Source: Guyparkeria halophila (GTDB lineage: Bacteria; Pseudomonadota; Gammaproteobacteria; Halothiobacillales; Halothiobacillaceae). From it: 64,000 nt of DNA. This document shows positions 45,768-60,706 of this stretch, one piece after another. Location of the stretch: positions 1,495,501 to 1,559,500 of the forward strand of contig NZ_CP140153.1 of NCBI RefSeq assembly GCF_034479635.1, read 5' to 3'. Numbering within the stretch: position 1 is the stretch's first letter; each line of letters begins with the position of its first letter. The notes beneath the pieces are model-generated. The model did no database searches. It worked only from the letters and a program-made list of their open reading frames with translations, and was not told the origin of the DNA. The position numbers and the translations under genes are program-made.

Positions 45768-46214
45768 TCAAAGCCAGACCGCATCCCAATGCGGATAATC
45801 TCCAATGCGCTCCACCAGTCCCGCCCGCACCGGGTTAGCCACGATATAGGGCGCCACGTCACGACGCGCCTGGTCCTCACGCAAGGCATGATCGTGGTAG
45901 TTCGGTTGCCAGAGTGGCCCGTGCCTGCCCAATTGCCGATTGATCCGGCGGGCACTGACGCCGCGCACCCGTTGCATGACGTCCGCCAGGCTCGATTGCC
46001 GCAGCCTGAGCAGGGCATGGAAATGATCGGGCATCACCACCCAGGCCAGCCAGTCGGCACGATCGGCGACCTCACTCTCACGGAAGGTGGTGATCAGCAG
46101 ACGAGCCAGTTGCCAGTCCTTAAACGTGGGCCTCCGCCCACGGGTCACCGCCGTCACCAGATATTCCCGACCGGGCTCCGAGCATCGACCGCGACGCAAG
46201 TCGCTGTAACTCAT
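45768..46214 (-). CDS. REP-associated tyrosine transposase (RAYT, TnpA-REP)
   Basis: 148 residues of the Y1/HUH superfamily. The HUH motif is MPDHFHALL near residue 63-71 (His-hydrophobic-Phe-His form), and the nucleophile Tyr is in LWQPNYHDHALR near 103. YIVANPVRAGLV near 125 is the family C-terminal hallmark. RAYTs cut single-stranded REP hairpins and are thought to have spread them; they lack IS200/IS605 ends and are domesticated rather than freely mobile. The start ATG follows AAGGAGGG. The four REP units lie just downstream of the stop (the nearest 5 bases away) and none is seen upstream, so the cluster is one-sided. Confidence 0.93.
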   Translation of the reverse strand: MSYSDLRRGRCSEPGREYLVTAVTRGRRPTFKDWQLARLLITTFRESEVADRADWLAWVVMPDHFHALLRLRQSSLADVMQRVRGVSARRINRQLGRHGPLWQPNYHDHALREDQARRDVAPYIVANPVRAGLVERIGDYPHWDAVWL

Positions 46215-53643: not shown

Positions 53644-54846
53644 ATGCTCGATTGGAATGATCCGCTCAAGAAAGGTGACGACAACCCGCAACCGGCCGGC
53701 CAGCCGCAGCCGTCGCACGACGCGGCCAGCGTGATGCCCGCCGCCTACGACGATGGTCAGGAGCATCACTTCGACCCGTCGCTGGCCGAGGGCGCCGACC
53801 AGACCGGTCTGGGTGGCATCGAGGCCAACGCCGGTCGCGTCGACGTCTCGGAAAAGCGCATCATCAACGCCACTGCCGACGTCAACCAGCTGCTGCCGCT
53901 GAAATACCAGTGGGCCTGGGAGAAGTACCTCGCCGGCTGCAACAACCACTGGATGCCCACCGAGGTTTCCATGCAGGCGGATCTGGCCCTGTGGAAATCC
54001 AAGGACGGCCTGACCCAGGACGAGCGCAACATGGTGATGCGCAACCTCGGCTTTTTCGCCACCGCGGAGTCCCTGGTCGCCAACAACATCGTGCTTGCCG
54101 TCTACGAGCAGGTTACCAACCCCGAGTGCCGCCAGTACCTGCTGCGACAGGCGTTCGAGGAAGCGGTGCACACCCACACCTTCCAGTACATCGTCGACAG
54201 CCTCGGTCTGGCCGAGGGCGAGCTGTTCAACATGTACCGCGAGGTGCCGTCGATCACCGCCAAGGACTCCTGGGCACTGAAATACACCCAGGACCTGTCC
54301 GAAGGCACCTTCAACACCTCCACGCAGGAAGGCGCGCAGAACTTCCTGCGTGACCTGGTCGCCTTCTACGTGGTCTTCGAGGGCATGTGGTTCTACACCG
54401 GGTTTGCGCAGATCCTGTCGCTGGGCCGTCGCAACAAGATGACCGGCATCGCCGAGCAGTACCAGTACATCATGCGCGACGAGTCCATCCACCTGAACTT
54501 CGGCATCGACCTGATCAACCAGATCAAGATCGAGAACCCGGAACTGTGGGGCGAGGCCTTCCAGCACGAAGTCCACGAGATGCTGCGCGAGGCCTGCGAA
54601 CTCGAAATCGACTACGCCCGCGACACCATCCCCAACGGCCTGCTCGGCCTGAACGCCGAGATGTGCGAGGAGTACATGCACTTCATCACCAACCGCCGCT
54701 GCAGCCAGATCGGCCTGGCCGAGCTCTACCCGGGGGCTACCAACCCGTTCCCGTGGATGAGCGAAGTGGTCGATCTGAAGAAGGAGAAGAACTTCTTTGA
54801 GACTCGGGTTACGGATTATCAGACTGGGGGTGCGCTGACCTGGTAA
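53644..54846 (+). CDS. nrdB: Ribonucleotide reductase class I beta subunit, class Ic-like (radical Tyr replaced by Phe)
   Basis: 400 residues. The six metal ligands are all present, at Glu142 (TAESLVANN), Glu173 and His176 ([13 protein letters not shown]), Glu246 (FEGMWFY), Glu280 and His283 (RDESIHLNF). Two features depart from class Ia. The first ligand is Glu rather than Asp. The residue four after the first His, where the stable tyrosyl radical sits (Tyr122 in E. coli), is Phe180. Every spacing between ligands (31, 3, 70, 34, 3) equals that of Chlamydia trachomatis R2, the prototype Mn/Fe class Ic enzyme with Phe127. I therefore infer a tyrosine-free heterometallic cofactor; Mn2 (class Id) is the alternative. 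Ends in [20 protein letters not shown]. Confidence 0.95.
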
Positions 54847-54878
54847 GAGCTCGGCCGGCAGCTTGAAGATGTGAGAAA

Positions 54879-54912
54879 ACGCCCCGCTAGCAAAGCCAGC
54901 GGGGCGTCTTAA
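54879..54912 (+). terminator. Terminator of nrdAB
   Basis: ACGCCCCGCT pairs perfectly with AGCGGGGCGT around a 9-base loop, 30 bases after the nrdB stop. The tail CTTAATTT is only moderately T-rich. Confidence 0.8.
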
Positions 54913-54976
54913 TTTCCACTTCTGGTTGACTAACACGCACGGCCAGCTTTTTGACAGCGCACATTAGGGCATATTT

Positions 54977-55639
54977 ATGAACTTACTTCCCGATTTGCTT
55001 AGGAACTTCGATCGCGGACCCACCACTATATTTAGAGGACATGCAGATTCCTCATGGCAAGCAATCCCATCCATTGGACGAAGCTTTAGTGGCGACTGGG
55101 AGAAGGTGCTCGATAAAGAAAAAGCCATATTAGAAGAGTTTAAAAATAGAAGTATTGCTTCTCTTTCAGTTACGCCAAAATCGGATATCGATTGGCTTTG
55201 CTTGATGCAACATCATGGGTGCCCGACACGTCTGCTGGACTACACGCTAAACCCTCTTATAGCTATATATTTTGCCTCAGACCCAACAATAGAGGCAGAT
55301 GGAGAAGTCATAATAGCCAAATACAAACGTTCAGAAGCGAGTGTACCCAACGATGGGCTTTTTGACATAGAGTTCCCTTTTGCATATCACCCTCCTCACA
55401 TCACAGAACGAATTGTTGGACAGGCTGGTTGTTTTGTATGCTCAGCGACTCCTAACCGAGAATTAGTAGGATCCGAGCAGAAAGGTATAAAGATTCCCGC
55501 CGGACACAAAATAAGACTTCGAAAAGAACTTAGCGTTCTTGGCATATCATACTCCAGTATCTTTCCCGGCTTGGACGGAATTTGCGGTGATTTAAGGGAC
55601 ACCATTGAAAGCGATCTTGAACTCGAGGACTTGTTTTAA
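54977..55639 (+). CDS. FRG-domain protein (AT-rich, probably acquired)
   Basis: 220 residues. The domain-defining motif is IFRGHADSSWQAIPSIGR (FRG at 19-21, then Trp and PS), and the second hallmark LMQHHGCPTRLLDYTLNPLIAIYFA is at about 76-100. FRG domains (named after the FRG triad) occur in proteins of unknown biochemistry, often in variable or defence-associated loci. No partner nuclease, toxin or sensor gene is adjacent. The base composition is strikingly AT-rich (Lys AAA/AAG, Ile ATA codons) compared with the GC-rich neighbours, which indicates recent transfer. No good ribosome-binding site precedes the ATG. It abuts the repeat-rich stretch on its 3' side. Confidence 0.8.
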   Translation: MNLLPDLLRNFDRGPTTIFRGHADSSWQAIPSIGRSFSGDWEKVLDKEKAILEEFKNRSIASLSVTPKSDIDWLCLMQHHGCPTRLLDYTLNPLIAIYFASDPTIEADGEVIIAKYKRSEASVPNDGLFDIEFPFAYHPPHITERIVGQAGCFVCSATPNRELVGSEQKGIKIPAGHKIRLRKELSVLGISYSSIFPGLDGICGDLRDTIESDLELEDLF

Positions 55640-55730
55640 TTTAAATCAAATCGGAGCAGAAGAATTCGCGCTTAGGTAAAGTTTCGCACGCTCCAGAAAT
55701 AGAGCGTTCATCTCTATGCCACCATGCCAA
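55640..55730. other. AT-rich to GC-rich junction
   Basis: The low-GC segment that carries the FRG gene ends near 55680, where TTTCGCACGC begins. The same ten bases open the sequence before the third structured repeat at 57844, so this decamer may be part of the repeat unit or an insertion boundary. Confidence 0.35.
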
Positions 55731-55936
55731 GCGCGCGAGGCACTTTCTCTTGCTTGCCCAAGAGAAAGTGCCCAAAGAGAACGGCACCCCTCGCCTTGGC
55801 CCTGCGGGCTTCCCTCCCGTCCGAGGTGCCGCGGACGGGTCGGTTCGACGCGACGTCGTGTCGCGGCGAACCTCAGCGCCACGTCCATGTGGCGCTGACC
55901 CTGCGGCACCCCGGCCGCTCGGCAAGGGCGAAGGGG
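55731..55936 (+). repeat. Structured repeat, copy A (forward, short-arm form)
   Basis: First of four related elements. It opens with a 14-bp hairpin (GGCACTTTCTCTTG, CTTGCC, CAAGAGAAAGTGCC), followed by a single-stranded-like linker containing CCCAAAGAGAA and CACCCC. Next comes a closing stem (GGTGCCGC...GGGTC, 55825-55841, with GACCC-T-GCGGCACC, 55897-55910). Two arms sit inside it: GGTTCGACGCGAC/GTCGCGGCGAACC (55842-55872) and TCAGCGCCAC/GTGGCGCTGA (55873-55898). No protein is encoded. Confidence 0.85.
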
Positions 55937-56013
55937 ATCGACGAGTCTGGTAATTCGGTGCCAAGAACAACTTGATTGGTGCTGCTTTGGGTTGGGCACG
56001 CGCTCTTGGCGCG

Positions 56014-56079
56014 TTTCGCGAGCGGGGCTCGCTCCCACGGGGGATCTGGTGGTTGTGGGAGCGAGCCCCGCTCGCGAAA
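56014..56079. repeat. Perfect inverted pair of GTGGGAGC-type REP units
   Basis: Two 25-base arms, 56014-56038 and 56055-56079, are exact reverse complements around a 16-base spacer. Each arm is itself a small hairpin (GCGAGC...GCTCGC) with an outer head GTGGGA and tail GCGAAA. This resembles the REP units common in Pseudomonas but is unrelated to the RAYT-side family at 45.6 kb. Confidence 0.92.
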
Positions 56080-56156
56080 GCCGCAGTGCGGCTGTCCTGC
56101 GTTCAGGTCGGCAACAAAGGCCGTTCTTCACCTAGGAAGGTTCGGTTAGCAATCCC

Positions 56157-56423
56157 CGGGGCCCCTGTGCCTTCCCTCGTCATCGCTGGCTTGCCGGGTC
56201 GGCGCCACATGGACGTGGCGCCGAGGTTCGCCGCGACAGGAGGTCGCGTCGAACCGAGCCCTACAGCAAGCCAGCGCTGACGAGGGAAGCCCGAAGGGCC
56301 AAGGCAGCGGGGTGTCCTTGTCTTTGGGCCCTTTCTATTGGACAAGCAATAGAAAGGGCCTCGGGCGTTGGCAACGCGTTACAAACGAAGTTGCCAAACC
56401 CAACAAACGCCCGAAACCCGAAC
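56157..56423 (-). repeat. Structured repeat, copy B (reverse, short-arm form)
   Basis: Read on the minus strand, the order matches copy A: terminal hairpin (GGCCCTTTCTATTG...CAATAGAAAGGGCC), linker CCCAAAGACAA...CACCCC and GGCTTCCCTCG. The closing stem is GCTGGCTTGC with GCAAGCCAGC, and the two inner arms are GGTTCG/CGAACC and CGGCGCCAC/GTGGCGCCG. An extra segment beyond the hairpin (GTTGCCAACGCCC, AACAAACGCCCGAAAC) is shared with copy D but not with A or C. Confidence 0.85.
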
Positions 56424-56591
56424 CACCTCCCCCCGAAGGCATCCGGCTCCCCCAGCGACACCCCATAGGTGGCGCTTGCGCCGACATACTGCTTACCGGC
56501 ATGCTTCTACGCGGGATCAGACGGCTACACAGGACGTAATCGACACTGATCTCGCCTTCAAGGACGAAAAACAGGACAAGGAGAACGTCCC

Positions 56592-57782
56592 ATGTGGATG
56601 CTGCTCGCTGGCGTCATCGCGCTGATCGGTCTGACCGTGTACTTCTATCGCCTAAGGCGCGACGACCGCTGGAAAGCCAAACCCCTTCTCTCCAGGCGCC
56701 AACGCAAGCGCGAGCCGTTTCAGACGCCACCGGAAGGCACGCTGTACTCCTTTGCTGCCCGACCCAGTCGTAAAACCATCGAGCGGCTTGGCTACGAGAA
56801 AGCACCCGACATCCACTTGCGCGTGAAGCGCAAGCGCTGGTGGGATCGCCTTTTCAGTGCACTGGGCATCTCGGTCGCCTGCCGCAGCGATAACCCGAAG
56901 TTCGACCGCACCCTCCATCTGGTTACGGACGCAGCCCCTGTCTGCCGGGCCATGCAGACAAGCCCCAAAACACAGGCGCTCATGCTACGCCTCGCGGATT
57001 CGTGCGAACCCAACGGGGTCCGGTTCCGACAATTCGTCGTGCGTCGCGGTCAATTGTGGATCGAAGTCGTCGCCAAGAAGCGGAAGAAAGGGTCACCCCC
57101 CATGGTGCTGGCCGACACCTTCGTGCCGGATCTGCGCGAGCTTTCCGAGGCAATGGAGCAGGAGATACCGGAAACCGCACGGGGTGTCGAGGATCAAGTG
57201 AACAAAAAGGCCGCTCTGATCGGGAGCATTTGCGTTGCCCTCTTTCTAGGCGGATTCCTATTTTTTTCCCGCCAGATACTCTTCCCCATTCCAGCGCCGC
57301 TCGAGATCTGGCCCCTGGTCGAGATGGCGTTTGTTACCGCCATCGCGGTATTTGCCGCACTCGTGGTGTTCACGTTTGCCTGGATGGGTCGGACCACACG
57401 CACTCACGTCGTACTGATTGAAGTGGTTCTCACCGGCATCCTCGGCGCGGGGCTGACCAGCTACTCGGTCCTGCGCGAAGCCAATATGGCGTTCGACTCC
57501 TCATCGGGCGAACGGCATGTCGTCGAGGTACTAAAAAAAGAGATATCTCACGGCCACCGGAGCACAAGCTACTACCTCCATCTGGCCCCATGGCACGAAT
57601 CGCAGGGGGACACGCAATTGGAGGTCGGCACATCGCTATTCAACGCCGTTCGCTCCGGCTACCCGCTGTTAGTCGAAGAACATCCGGGCGCACTCGGAGT
57701 CAGCTGGGTTCGCCTGATCCCACCACGTTTTCGATATGTCGATGAATCCGGAAATCCGGTATCCGAGAATACGACCCCGTAA
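56592..57782 (+). CDS. Hypothetical four-helix membrane protein
   Basis: 396 residues, not recognised. An N-terminal helix (WMLLAGVIALIGLTVYFYR, 2-20) is followed by a basic cytoplasmic-type region (about 21-200) rich in Arg and Lys, with a RRGQLWIEVVAKKRK strand. Helices follow at about 207-226, 242-264 and 272-291. The C-terminal ~105 residues are soluble and contain SYYLHLAPWHESQGD and PLLVEEHPGALGVSWV. AAGGAGAACGTCCC precedes the ATG, so it is likely translated. It is framed by repeat B on the left and repeat C on the right, an accessory setting. No partner gene is adjacent; the function is unknown. Confidence 0.6.
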   Translation: MWMLLAGVIALIGLTVYFYRLRRDDRWKAKPLLSRRQRKREPFQTPPEGTLYSFAARPSRKTIERLGYEKAPDIHLRVKRKRWWDRLFSALGISVACRSDNPKFDRTLHLVTDAAPVCRAMQTSPKTQALMLRLADSCEPNGVRFRQFVVRRGQLWIEVVAKKRKKGSPPMVLADTFVPDLRELSEAMEQEIPETARGVEDQVNKKAALIGSICVALFLGGFLFFSRQILFPIPAPLEIWPLVEMAFVTAIAVFAALVVFTFAWMGRTTRTHVVLIEVVLTGILGAGLTSYSVLREANMAFDSSSGERHVVEVLKKEISHGHRSTSYYLHLAPWHESQGDTQLEVGTSLFNAVRSGYPLLVEEHPGALGVSWVRLIPPRFRYVDESGNPVSENTTP

Positions 57783-57816
57783 GGTTCAAATAGCTGATAA
57801 ACCAAGGATAAAGGGG

Positions 57817-57841
57817 TCAGAAGTATTTAAATCGCTTCTGA
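57817..57841. repeat. Small AT-rich hairpin with GGGGTCAGA motif
   Basis: TCAGAAG at 57817-57823 pairs with CTTCTGA at 57835-57841 around a TATTTAAAT-containing loop, preceded by AAAGGGG. The GGGGTCAGA element resembles short palindromes seen in many gammaproteobacterial genomes near RAYT-type genes. It lies 34 bases after the membrane-protein stop and has no T-run tail. Confidence 0.45.
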
Positions 57842-57879
57842 AATTTCGCACGCATGCTACTCACCTCACGGTGCCACGC

Positions 57880-58154
57880 GCGCGAGCGCACTTTCTCTTG
57901 CTTGCCCAAGAGAAAGTACCCAAAGAGAACGGCACCCCTCGCCTTGGCCCTGCGGGCTTCCCTCCCGGCCGGGCTGACGCGGACGGGTCGGTTCGACGCG
58001 ACGTCCTGTCGCGGCGAACCTCGGCGCAACGGTCCAGCTACGCTTGCGCTCCGCGTTCATCGGGCATGCGGCGTGCCACTGGCACGCCGGTCCCGATTCA
58101 CCCATGTTGCGCCGACCCTGCGGCACCCCGGCCGCTCGGCAAGGGCGAAGGGGC
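57880..58154 (+). repeat. Structured repeat, copy C (forward, long-arm form)
   Basis: Near-identical to copy A through the hairpin (ACTTTCTCTTG...CAAGAGAAAGT), the linker and the GGTTCG/CGAACC arm. The second inner arm is enlarged: TCGGCGCAAC and GTTGCGCCGA enclose a further perfect hairpin CGGCGTGCCA/TGGCACGCCG. The closing stem is CGGCCGGG...GGGTCGG with CCGACCC...CCCGGCCG. Frames open across it are spurious. Confidence 0.85.
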
Positions 58155-58185
58155 TCTCGTGGCTGATGACTCCGTGCCACATCTT

Positions 58186-58267
58186 TGTAGGTTGGGCTTT
58201 AGCCCAACAATCCATACGGATGAACAGTCGCCCTATCGGGCGACGTTGGACTGAAGTCCAACCTACG
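58186..58267. repeat. Three-hairpin REP cluster, diverged TGTAGG family
   Basis: Three consecutive hairpins: TGTAGGTTGGGCT..AGCCCAACA (58186-58209), GTCGCCC/GGGCGAC (58227-58244) and GTTGGACT..AGTCCAACCTACG (58245-58267). The outer two are oppositely oriented and keep the TGTAGG/CCTACG head of the 45.6 kb REP family while changing stem bases in complementary fashion (TCGGGC to TTGGGC, with GCCCGA to GCCCAA). Confidence 0.85.
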
Positions 58268-58276
58268 CGGGGCTCT

Positions 58277-58301
58277 GTGGGGGCGACCCCTGGCCGCGAA
58301 A
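58277..58301 (+). repeat. Degenerate GTGGGAGC-type REP unit
   Basis: GTGGGGGCGACCCC followed by TGGCCGCGAAA keeps the GTGG head and GCGAAA tail of the 56.0 kb REP unit but has a weakened stem. It lies within the insert between copies C and D. Confidence 0.5.
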
Positions 58302-58368
58302 GCGGCTGTCCTGTTCCCGGATTGGCAACTCAATACATTTCCCGGCAAACATGCCTCGGCCGGCACAC

Positions 58369-58697
58369 CCGGGGCCCCTGCGCCTTGCCTCGTCGCCGCT
58401 GGGTTGCAGGGTCGGAGCGGCATGGGTGAATCGGGAACGGCGTGCCAGTGGCACGCTGCAGCCCGGTGAACGCGTAGCGGTAGCGGAGCAGGACCGCCGA
58501 CCAGAGGTTCTACGCGACAGGAGGTCGCGTCGAACCGACCCGTCCGCAACCCGGCGGTGACGAGGGAAGCCCGAAGGGCCAAGGCGCCGGGGTGTCCTTG
58601 TCTTTGGGCACTTTCTATTGGACAAGCAATAGAAAGTGCCTCGGGCGTTGGCGATGAGTTACAGACGAAATTGCCAAACGCAACAAACGCCCGAAAC
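58369..58697 (-). repeat. Structured repeat, copy D (reverse, long-arm form)
   Basis: Read on the minus strand it is the partner of copy B, with the enlarged arm as in copy C. The terminal hairpin is GGCACTTTCTATTG...CAATAGAAAGTGCC, one compensated pair different from copy B. The closing stem is CCTCGTCGCCGC..GGGTTGC (58388-58407) with GCAACCC..GTGACGAGG (58546-58565). The conserved arm lies at 58506-58536. The tail AACAAACGCCCGAAAC is shared with B. Confidence 0.85.
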
Positions 58698-58762
58698 CGT
58701 CCCACTCCCACTCAATTGGCCCACACCCTCAGCCTCAAAGCGGGACACACGCCGTCGGCGCG

Positions 58763-58787
58763 TTTCGCTTGCGGGGCAAGCTTCCAC
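58763..58787 (-). repeat. GTGGAAGC-type REP unit with compensated stem
   Basis: On the minus strand: GTGGAAGCTTGCC then CCGCAAGCGAAA. Compared with the 56.0 kb unit (GTGGGAGCGAG...CTCGCGAAA) the stem bases GA/TC became TT/AA, so pairing is kept. Confidence 0.7.
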
Positions 58788-58821
58788 AGTGGGGTTGGTG
58801 AGCGTGCGGGGATGCAGCGGA

Positions 58822-58845
58822 TTTCGCGCCTGAAGGCGCTCCTAC
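58822..58845 (-). repeat. GTAGGAGC-type REP unit with TTCA loop
   Basis: On the minus strand: GTAGGAGCGCC, TTCA, GGCGCGAAA. Head, hairpin and tail fit the same REP architecture as at 56.0 and 58.76 kb, with another compensated stem. Confidence 0.7.
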
Positions 58846-58987
58846 GGTTGCCGGGGTGAGCGGGTTGGCCCGGTCTCCGTCGGGCCGACGATACCGTCGA
58901 TTGATCGCCCGCCCTGCCCCAACCGCCCAAATCCGCTAAGGTGACGATCAGTCTCGACGAACCCATCCGCCGTCACGGACAGGCCCC

Positions 58988-60706
58988 ATGAACAAGTTCC
59001 AACTCCTCTACGGCCGCCTGCTGGGCGACGTCGGCACGGTCTTCTATCTCTCGGTGATGATCATCGCCGTGTTCGTCACGGTGGCCGCGCTCTACCCCGC
59101 CGACGTCGAGCGGGTCGCCAACCAGGTGCTGGATTACACCGCGAACAAGATGGGCTGGATGTACCTGCTGGCGACCAGCGGGTTCGTGATCTTCATCCTG
59201 TTCCTGGGACTGTCGAAGTTCGGCAACATCCGGCTGGGACCGGACGACGAGCCGCCGGAGTTCAGCTTCAAGAGCTGGCTTGCCATGATCTTCTCCGGCG
59301 GCATGGGCGTGGGCCTGGTCTTCTGGGGCGTGGCCGAGCCGATGATGCACTTCAACGAGCCACCGCTGGGAATCGCCGAGCCACGCTCGGTGGACGCGGC
59401 ACAGACGGGCATGCGCTATGCCTTCTTCCACTGGGGGCTGCACCAGTGGGCGAACTTCGCACTGGTGGGGCTCGCGATCGCCTACATCCGCTTTCGCCAC
59501 AATGCGCGCGGCCTGATTTCCGAGACCTTCCGCCCCATGCTGGGCAGCCGCGTCGATAGCGGCTGGGGCGTGGCCATCGACACGCTGGCGGTGGTGTCGA
59601 CCATCTTCGGGGTGGCCACCACGCTGGGCCTGGGTGCCCTGCAGATCAACAGCGGCATCGCGCGCTTCGAGGGGATCGAGTACGGCACCTCGACGCAGAT
59701 GCTGATCATTGCCGGGCTGGGCGTGCTGTTCACGCTCTCGGCGATGACGCCGCTCAAGCACGGCATTCGCTATCTCTCGAATCTGAACATGATCCTGGCG
59801 ATCGCCCTGTTCACCTACGTGATCCTGTTCGGGCCGACGGCGTTCATCTTCCAGGAGTTCACCCAGACGATGGGCGAGTACCTGGGCAATATCGTGCAGA
59901 TGAGTCTCGTGACCACGCCCTACTCCAGCGAACACTGGGTCGAGCAGTGGACGATGTTCTACTGGGCGTGGGGGCTTTCCTGGGCGCCGTTCGTCGGTTC
60001 GTTCATCGCGCGGATCTCGCGCGGGCGAACGATCCGGGAGTTCGTGCTGGGCGTGATGGTCGTGCCGGTGGGCCTGAGCATGCTGTGGTTCGCCGCCTTC
60101 GGCGGCAGCGCGATTTACATGGAGCTCTACGAGGCCGCCGGCATTGCCGATGCGGTGGCCCGCGAGGTGCCCGCCGGGCTCTACACCACGCTCGAGCAAC
60201 TGCCCTGGGGCACCTACGCGGGGCTGCTCGCGATCACGCTGGTGAGCGTGTTCGTGATCACCTCGGCGGATTCGGCCACCTTCGTGCTGGGCATGTTCAC
60301 TTCCAAGGGCGTGCTCAACCCGACGCGCTTCGTGCGCGTGCTCTGGGGCATGCTGCAGCTGTCGATGGCGGTGGTGCTGCTGTTGAGCGGCGGGCTCGAG
60401 GGGCTGCGCACGGTGTCGATCGTCGCCGCCTTCCCCTTCATGCTGCTGATGGTGCTGATGGCCTTCGCCCTGCACCGCGACCTGACCCAGGAGTTCTGGC
60501 AACGCGAGGAAAAAGAGCGCGTGATTCGCCAGCGGATCGAGAATCTGCTGTTGCGTGAATCCGAACGCGAGGCCGAGCGTGCCGCCGCCGAGGAGGTCCA
60601 CCCCTCTGCCCCGGACACGGTGCTCGGGCCGGATGAGCCGCCGCGCACCGGGCTTGGCGAGCACAGCGAGGCGCCAGACGCGGACGCGTCACCGAAGGCG
60701 AACTGA
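58988..60706 (+). CDS. BCCT-family betaine/carnitine/choline transporter
   Basis: 572 residues with twelve transmembrane helices. The BCCT signatures GGMGVGLVFWGVAEPMMHF (helix 3, start of the Gly-rich stretch) and WTMFYWAWGLSWAPFVGSFIARISRGRTIREF (helix 8 tryptophan box and following loop) are both intact. The C-terminal ~80 residues are cytoplasmic and strongly charged (EKERVIRQRIENLLLRESEREAERAAAEE), a helical extension like the osmosensing tail of BetP. It would import glycine betaine, choline or a related compatible solute, consistent with a salt-exposed lifestyle. Monocistronic, downstream of the repeat island and convergent with the GGDEF gene. Confidence 0.92.
   Translation: MNKFQLLYGRLLGDVGTVFYLSVMIIAVFVTVAALYPADVERVANQVLDYTANKMGWMYLLATSGFVIFILFLGLSKFGNIRLGPDDEPPEFSFKSWLAMIFSGGMGVGLVFWGVAEPMMHFNEPPLGIAEPRSVDAAQTGMRYAFFHWGLHQWANFALVGLAIAYIRFRHNARGLISETFRPMLGSRVDSGWGVAIDTLAVVSTIFGVATTLGLGALQINSGIARFEGIEYGTSTQMLIIAGLGVLFTLSAMTPLKHGIRYLSNLNMILAIALFTYVILFGPTAFIFQEFTQTMGEYLGNIVQMSLVTTPYSSEHWVEQWTMFYWAWGLSWAPFVGSFIARISRGRTIREFVLGVMVVPVGLSMLWFAAFGGSAIYMELYEAAGIADAVAREVPAGLYTTLEQLPWGTYAGLLAITLVSVFVITSADSATFVLGMFTSKGVLNPTRFVRVLWGMLQLSMAVVLLLSGGLEGLRTVSIVAAFPFMLLMVLMAFALHRDLTQEFWQREEKERVIRQRIENLLLRESEREAERAAAEEVHPSAPDTVLGPDEPPRTGLGEHSEAPDADASPKAN

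Follow-up and report, generated by a model that had tools for sequence, protein, structure and literature searches.

TwoAYGGAY RNA (Rfam family RF01731; Weinberg 2010, PMC2864571) is a three-way junction with two arms that carry AYGGAY-type loops, for which binding of CsrA was proposed in 2014 (PMC4333381). It belongs to the same Rfam clan, CL00106, as E. coli CsrB. The sponge RNAs CsrB/CsrC and RsmX/Y/Z are one to few promoter-driven genes with many GGA sites. Repetitive extragenic palindromes (REP) and their doublets (REPINs) are dispersed elements built on a single palindrome of ~20-40 nt per half, which occur mostly as inverted pairs around a spacer and avoid promoter regions. Telomerase RNA and the SAM-II riboswitch represent H-type pseudoknots with a triple helix between loop L1 and stem S2, in which L1 runs parallel to the purine strand of S2. 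Here we analyse a dispersed element of Guyparkeria halophila, four copies of which (A to D) lie between positions 55682 and 58696 of a 64,000-nucleotide stretch of its genome (contig NZ_CP140153.1, positions 1,495,501 to 1,559,500; hereafter the window, whose numbering is used unless stated otherwise). The structured element is real and strongly supported. Its best explanation would be a dispersed structured RNA element that binds CsrA, a reading to which we assign a probability of slightly under one half (about 0.48).

The original prediction had placed four related elements of alternating orientation (+ - + -) in this region. All four are present at those positions, with the base changes that had been reported: the terminal hairpin reads CTCTTG/CAAGAG in A and C and CTATTG/CAATAG in B and D, and its base is GGCCC/GGGCC in B and GGCAC/GTGCC in D. 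Their lengths had been underestimated, since the element includes an outer stem, P0, which reads TTTCGCACGC/GCGCGCGAG in A and C, so that these two copies begin ~40-50 bases before the start first assigned to them. Hereby, element A spans 55682 to 55936 and element B, its partner of a different subtype, 56162 to 56416; element C (57844 to 58153) is of the A type and element D (58375 to 58696), its partner, of the B type, the putative RNA strand being - for A and C and + for B and D. The assignments are based on the boundaries of all four copies, on the folds of A and B, and on matches of A (strand -, genome 1551312-1551422), C and D to R1, a covariance model of P5-P7 built from sequences of the genus. 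The three-way junction of the earlier outline is retained, but the fold is fuller and consists of P0, the terminal hairpin, a pseudoknotted linker, P2, side hairpins, P5 and the arms P6 and P7. The long variable arm noted in C and D is an insert of ~70 nt that enlarges the P7 loop. Similar inserts are found in at least four elements whose P7 stems differ (58022-58114, 58412-58503, G000 at ~610.2 kb, and L060), as if the insert were a separate mobile or convertible module.

In an alignment of 35 sequences of the genus, which was built without structure, double-sided changes occur in 22 of 36 pairs and 97.2% of the cells pair. The covariation score of 0.456 compares with a shuffled mean of 0.146, was reached in none of 500 shuffles and falls below 0.1 when the partners are slid by one to three columns. 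Among 47 sequences from other genera, double changes are seen in 33 of 36 pairs and the score amounts to 0.623 (0.152 when shuffled), in an alignment that was fitted to the structure and hence leans towards it. Selection on the folded form, as suggested originally, is thus supported by covariation both within the genus and across genera. The same data bear on the possibility, named along with that suggestion, that the copies are decayed remnants of a protein-coding insertion sequence. Open frames of 83-172 amino acids do run across the elements, but a Pfam search of these frames gave no family match even at an E-value of 0.1, and substitutions preserve pairing on a set of stems. As both results contradict it, this origin is rejected as exceedingly improbable.

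The inner junction formed by P5 to P7 corresponds to RF01731. This family has 15 matches in the host genome, a single contig of 2.45 Mb, at 46.6-64.2 bits (gathering score 43 bits), including A (49.8 bits) and B (57.2 bits at 56154-56306, strand +); C and D are absent from them, probably because of the P7 insert. The P7 loop is CANGGANG in 35 of 35 genus sequences and in 39 of 47 from other genera, with stems that vary freely. The P6 loop, often one base shorter than in the RF01731 consensus, contains GGA in 24 of the 35 genus sequences and in most of the others. In the arms of A (P6 and P7, 55842-55897, strand -) and B (P7 and P6, 56200-56255, strand +) the P7 loop is CAUGGACG, and the P6 loop reads CACGACG in A, where GGA is lost, and CAGGAGG in B. 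The arms of C (P6 and P7, 57990-58114, strand -) and D (P7 and P6, 58412-58536, strand +) carry the insert in P7 and have the P6 loops CAGGACG and CAGGAGG, respectively. The consensus RUACARGGAUGU, obtained for CsrA by systematic evolution of ligands by exponential enrichment (SELEX) and placed mostly in six-base loops, is matched by the P7 loop CANGGANG (PMC7652899), and csrA is present in the host genome and in 8 of 8 other genomes checked. The element had first been described as being without known function. This holds in part, the inner domain being an Rfam family with a published CsrA-binding proposal (PMC4333381), and the idea of CsrA binding is for this reason not new. The Rfam model is confined to P5-P7; it includes neither the terminal hairpin with its pseudoknot and third strand nor the outer stem, and it does not deal with the copy number and pairing described here. 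With the sponge RNAs the elements share GGA in hairpin loops, the clan CL00106 and the proposed CsrA role; unlike them, they have two GGA sites each, in many dispersed paired copies, and no sigma-70-like promoter was seen near those of the window.

With regard to the strand, the original description has to be corrected, as it is probably the reverse strand that is under selection. Relative to the elements, all 15 RF01731 matches in the host genome are on the reverse strand (for the element at 45.8 kb this was read in L080), as are 5 of 5 matches in other genera, where the family likewise scores above its gathering cut-off. Applied to both strands, RNAalifold yields 35 common pairs, at which the reverse strand shows 37 G-U against 7 A-C cells (23 versus 3 sequences); since the sequences are related, these 44 cells are not independent events. 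A difference in fold energy between the strands was dropped as evidence because random control windows vary as much. RNA rather than DNA as the selected form is supported, albeit indirectly.

Outside of the inner domain, the strongest corrected mutual information among 204 distinct hairpin-linker sequences connects a base of the hairpin loop with a base of the linker. This pair of columns is T-A in 99, C-G in 93 and G-C in 4 of 200 sequences (196/200 Watson-Crick), and uncommon loops change together with their linkers (CTTCGCC/GGCGA, CGTGGCC/GGCCAC, CTTGTGC/GCACA and CGTCGCC/GGCGAC). What covariation shows here is a predicted H-type pseudoknot of terminal hairpin and linker. Other linker columns covary with the stem, in a parallel register on the forward strand (A at T-A, G at C-G and C at A-T). 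Read on the reverse strand, this corresponds to a third strand of the pyrimidine type, with the triples U*A-U, C*G-C and G*U-A. Over 43 distinct combinations this rule fits 5.86 of 6 positions, compared to 2.6-3.5 in other registers and at most 4.51 for antiparallel pairing of the linker. None of 2000 permutations reaches the observed value, with only 10-13 unique short combinations entering this test. The linker is thus shown by covariation as a putative parallel Hoogsteen third strand along S2. Watson-Crick pairing of the linker with a hairpin arm was considered and rejected, as the covariation is parallel and the antiparallel match is lower at every offset tried. The pattern by which many of these sequences were collected prescribed some of the loop and a small number of linker bases, so that the conservation of the loop is partly due to this selection; the third-strand match was unselected. 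All four window copies fit the third-strand rule at 8 of 8 positions: A at 55739-55788 (strand -; hairpin S2 55739-55772, third strand L1 55774-55781, S1 55783-55788), B at 56311-56360 (strand +), C at 57888-57936 (strand -) and D at 58591-58640 (strand +), B and D with one G*U-A triple each.

One genome, G110, was found through the inner domain alone. By eye, its loops TCGCGA and TTACGA stand with upstream GCG and GTA, and its third strands TTCTTT and TTTTTT with the stem purines AAGAAA and AAAAA; the automatic search missed S1 in this genome because it comprises only ~3 pairs there. Some G110 copies (L213, L219) carry an insert in the third-strand region with two hairpins whose AGGAUG and AGGGAUG loops represent two further CsrA-type sites. 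As in telomerase RNA and SAM-II, L1 is rich in pyrimidines and runs in parallel with the purine strand of S2. In contrast to these, the third strand here changes in step with the stem, C*G-C and G*U-A triples included, and no sequence relation is claimed. A literature search on the hairpin sequence and on triple-helix intergenic repeats, outside of which most subscription journals lay, found nothing relevant, and within that literature the triple-helix pseudoknot and the two-part arrangement appear to be undescribed.

The copies are arranged in pairs, a two-part order that the original description did not contain, nor did it contain the pseudoknot or the triple helix. In other genera, neighbouring hairpins at most 2.5 kb apart are convergent in 29 cases, divergent in 5 and tandem in 1 (p ~1e-12 against random orientation), and the RNAs of paired halves point apart. 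The halves belong to two different subtypes in 9 of 9 pairs in the host, 7 of 7 in G110 and 3 of 3 in G049; in six host pairs every half, with the exception of one tie, is nearer to a copy elsewhere than to its partner. Elements are located at gene 3' ends, with convergent and divergent gene contexts in a ratio of 27:5 compared to 19:38 for other intergenic regions, the genes having been called by a simple codon-position rule. Depletion between divergent genes would also suit an element that acts at the DNA level. Such an element could be a triplex formed by mirror repeats (H-DNA) or a cruciform, and could either serve as a binding site for nucleoid proteins, gyrase or some replication factor or insulate transcription between genes; mirror repeats and inverted pairs are classical substrates of such DNA structures. 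Yet the G-U versus A-C strand asymmetry, the one-sided loop motif and the G*U-A triple, which fits a pyrimidine motif of the reverse strand, argue against it, and we regard an action at the DNA level as improbable. Still more improbable appears a bidirectional terminator or stabiliser of mRNA 3' ends that works without CsrA, in which the GC-rich P2 stem and the U-rich linker would end or protect transcripts from either side. The location at gene 3' ends agrees with it, and two terminator-like sites lie in the P2-linker segment of C and D on the RNA strand; the seven such sites overall are, however, a weak excess over the 3.1 (sd 2.0) of shuffles, the U-tract is interrupted, and the conserved GGA loops are left unexplained.

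A search of the host genome with R1 gave 24 matches at ~15 sites, one being a weak second match on the opposite strand to a stronger one. Blast matches number 8-24 in 9 of 10 relatives within the genus; the tenth, an incomplete genome, has none, and in the other genera of the family matches are few or absent. The exact pattern of terminal hairpin and linker matches at least 120 stretches, with Thioalkalivibrio, Halothiobacillus, Dyella, Rhodanobacter, Pseudomonas, Methylomonas, Solimonas, Salinisphaera, Niveibacterium, Methylophilus, Desulfobulbus and others among the matches listed, and R1 recovers the inner domain at many of these loci. A strict-filter scan of 143 genomes of the class was positive for four including the host, two unrelated positives carrying 18 and 24 copies. 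The family is patchy but widespread in Proteobacteria and abundant where present; the scatter stated in the original prediction is borne out by Dyella, Rhodanobacter, Pseudomonas and many other genera. A pattern match in a Flavobacteriia record (L120, a contig of Ulvibacter litoralis) may reflect transfer, contamination or chance. A plasmid- or virus-borne element was rejected, as no plasmid and only three viral contigs matched.

This patchy yet high-copy distribution is what would be expected of the main rival explanation, which is not exclusive of CsrA binding: a non-autonomous, REPIN-like element or one like a miniature inverted-repeat transposable element (MITE), of which left half, middle and right half spread together, the fold, as single-stranded DNA or RNA, being the substrate of a trans-acting enzyme and the CsrA-like loops being coincidental or serving the mobility protein. 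The excess of convergent over divergent and tandem pairs (29 versus 5 and 1) and the constant combination of two subtypes also fit such an element. At the dapC-dapD site (L015, L069-L072; gene names assigned by eye) the two-part unit is inverted, absent or reduced to a remnant between species, and the inversion of whole units suggests recombination between halves or an inversion mechanism. Y1_Tnp is encoded in the four genus genomes with 21-24 blast matches and in neither of the two with 11, a comparison that is small (n=6) and confounded by kinship. On the other hand, the genomes without Y1_Tnp still carry 11 matches, none of the Y1_Tnp genes of the host adjoins an element, no transposase was found inside or adjoining the units examined, and no site was found that was cleanly empty and bore a target duplication, those lacking the unit appearing decayed. 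Nor would mobility alone explain the conserved GGA loops. A resident reverse transcriptase is absent from 7 of 8 genomes, which disfavours retrotransposition by it. Compared to REP and REPIN sequences, the elements share the dispersed, extragenic occurrence, mostly as inverted pairs around a spacer, and the avoidance of promoter regions; they differ in their multidomain halves of ~250 nt, in the two obligate subtypes, in the lack of a linked Y1 gene in the units examined and in their occurrence in genomes without Y1_Tnp. Taken by itself, we consider the mobile element a rather unlikely explanation.

For the dispersed CsrA-binding RNA, the following course of events may be envisaged. Each copy would be half of a two-part unit and specify an RNA of ~200-260 nt, encoded on the reverse of the strand first described and comprising from 5' to 3' a P2/P5 trunk, the three-way junction with the P7 loop CANGGANG and an AGGA-type P6 loop, and the H-type pseudoknot with its pyrimidine third strand. 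Such an RNA might be made from its own start or within transcripts that read past gene 3' ends; read-through is conceivable because any transcript that runs through a unit, whichever side it enters from, contains one sense element. With its two GGA loops side by side, the RNA would then bind a CsrA dimer, thereby sequestering CsrA or marking the transcript, while the triple-helix pseudoknot could close and protect the 3' side. As the halves differ in sequence, full-length pairing between them would be avoided. Several observations weigh against this proposal. No sigma-70-like promoter was detected in 55600-58800, consensus scans being weak in GC-rich genomes, and stand-alone elements show no preference for the sense orientation relative to the neighbouring gene. 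The stems of P6 and P7 are long, and SELEX suggests that CsrA may bind less readily where stems are very stable (PMC7652899). The modules are separable, as some elements have the hairpin and linker but no clear GGA domain, and in G049 the GGA domain occurs with no pseudoknot; a single function can therefore not be ascribed to all copies. The copy number, the patchy distribution and the inverted pairs, moreover, resemble those of a mobile element. More tentative than CsrA binding as such is its extension to a widespread RNA family whose members form obligate pairs of two subtypes, point apart at gene 3' ends and combine a two-site CsrA-binding junction with a triple-helix pseudoknot, and that would tune Csr via a dispersed, turning-over array instead of one to two sponge genes.

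Further features were noted in and around the units. The middle of the A/B unit (55937-56161) contains a separate palindrome with 30-bp arms at 56009-56084, that of the C/D unit (58154-58374) a second one at 58187-58266, and both resemble ordinary REP-type repeats. A Y1-type transposase gene lies at 45843-46163 on strand -, ~10 kb from the elements. A recurring AAAGGGGTCAGAACC-like motif adjoins the outer side of several A- or C-type elements (57811-57835; genome ~610.0, 1745.4 and 2247.5 kb). The stretch between nrdB and a BCCT transporter gene (54846-58988) is a hotspot, which in the window holds an FRG-domain gene (PADLOC PDC-S15, a candidate defence gene) and an unassigned membrane protein. 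In other species different genes occupy this site, e.g. Tn7-like TnsA/TnsB/TniB/TniQ together with large operons in G003 (L048), and similar open reading frames are present in G002 (L051). An interpretation as integron-like cassettes, raised by the swapped genes between nrdB and the A/B unit, was not kept as the main one, since other subtypes occupy shared core loci; integrases were not searched for.

RF01731, a family with little biological context beyond a predicted CsrA site, thus becomes the inner domain of a larger multi-copy, two-part element with a covariation-supported triple-helix pseudoknot. This setting makes its role directly testable and raises the question why the two halves must differ. 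Moreover, the loop-linker and third-strand rules provide a signature for finding members of the family and for assigning their strand, where they would otherwise be seen as spurious small open frames.

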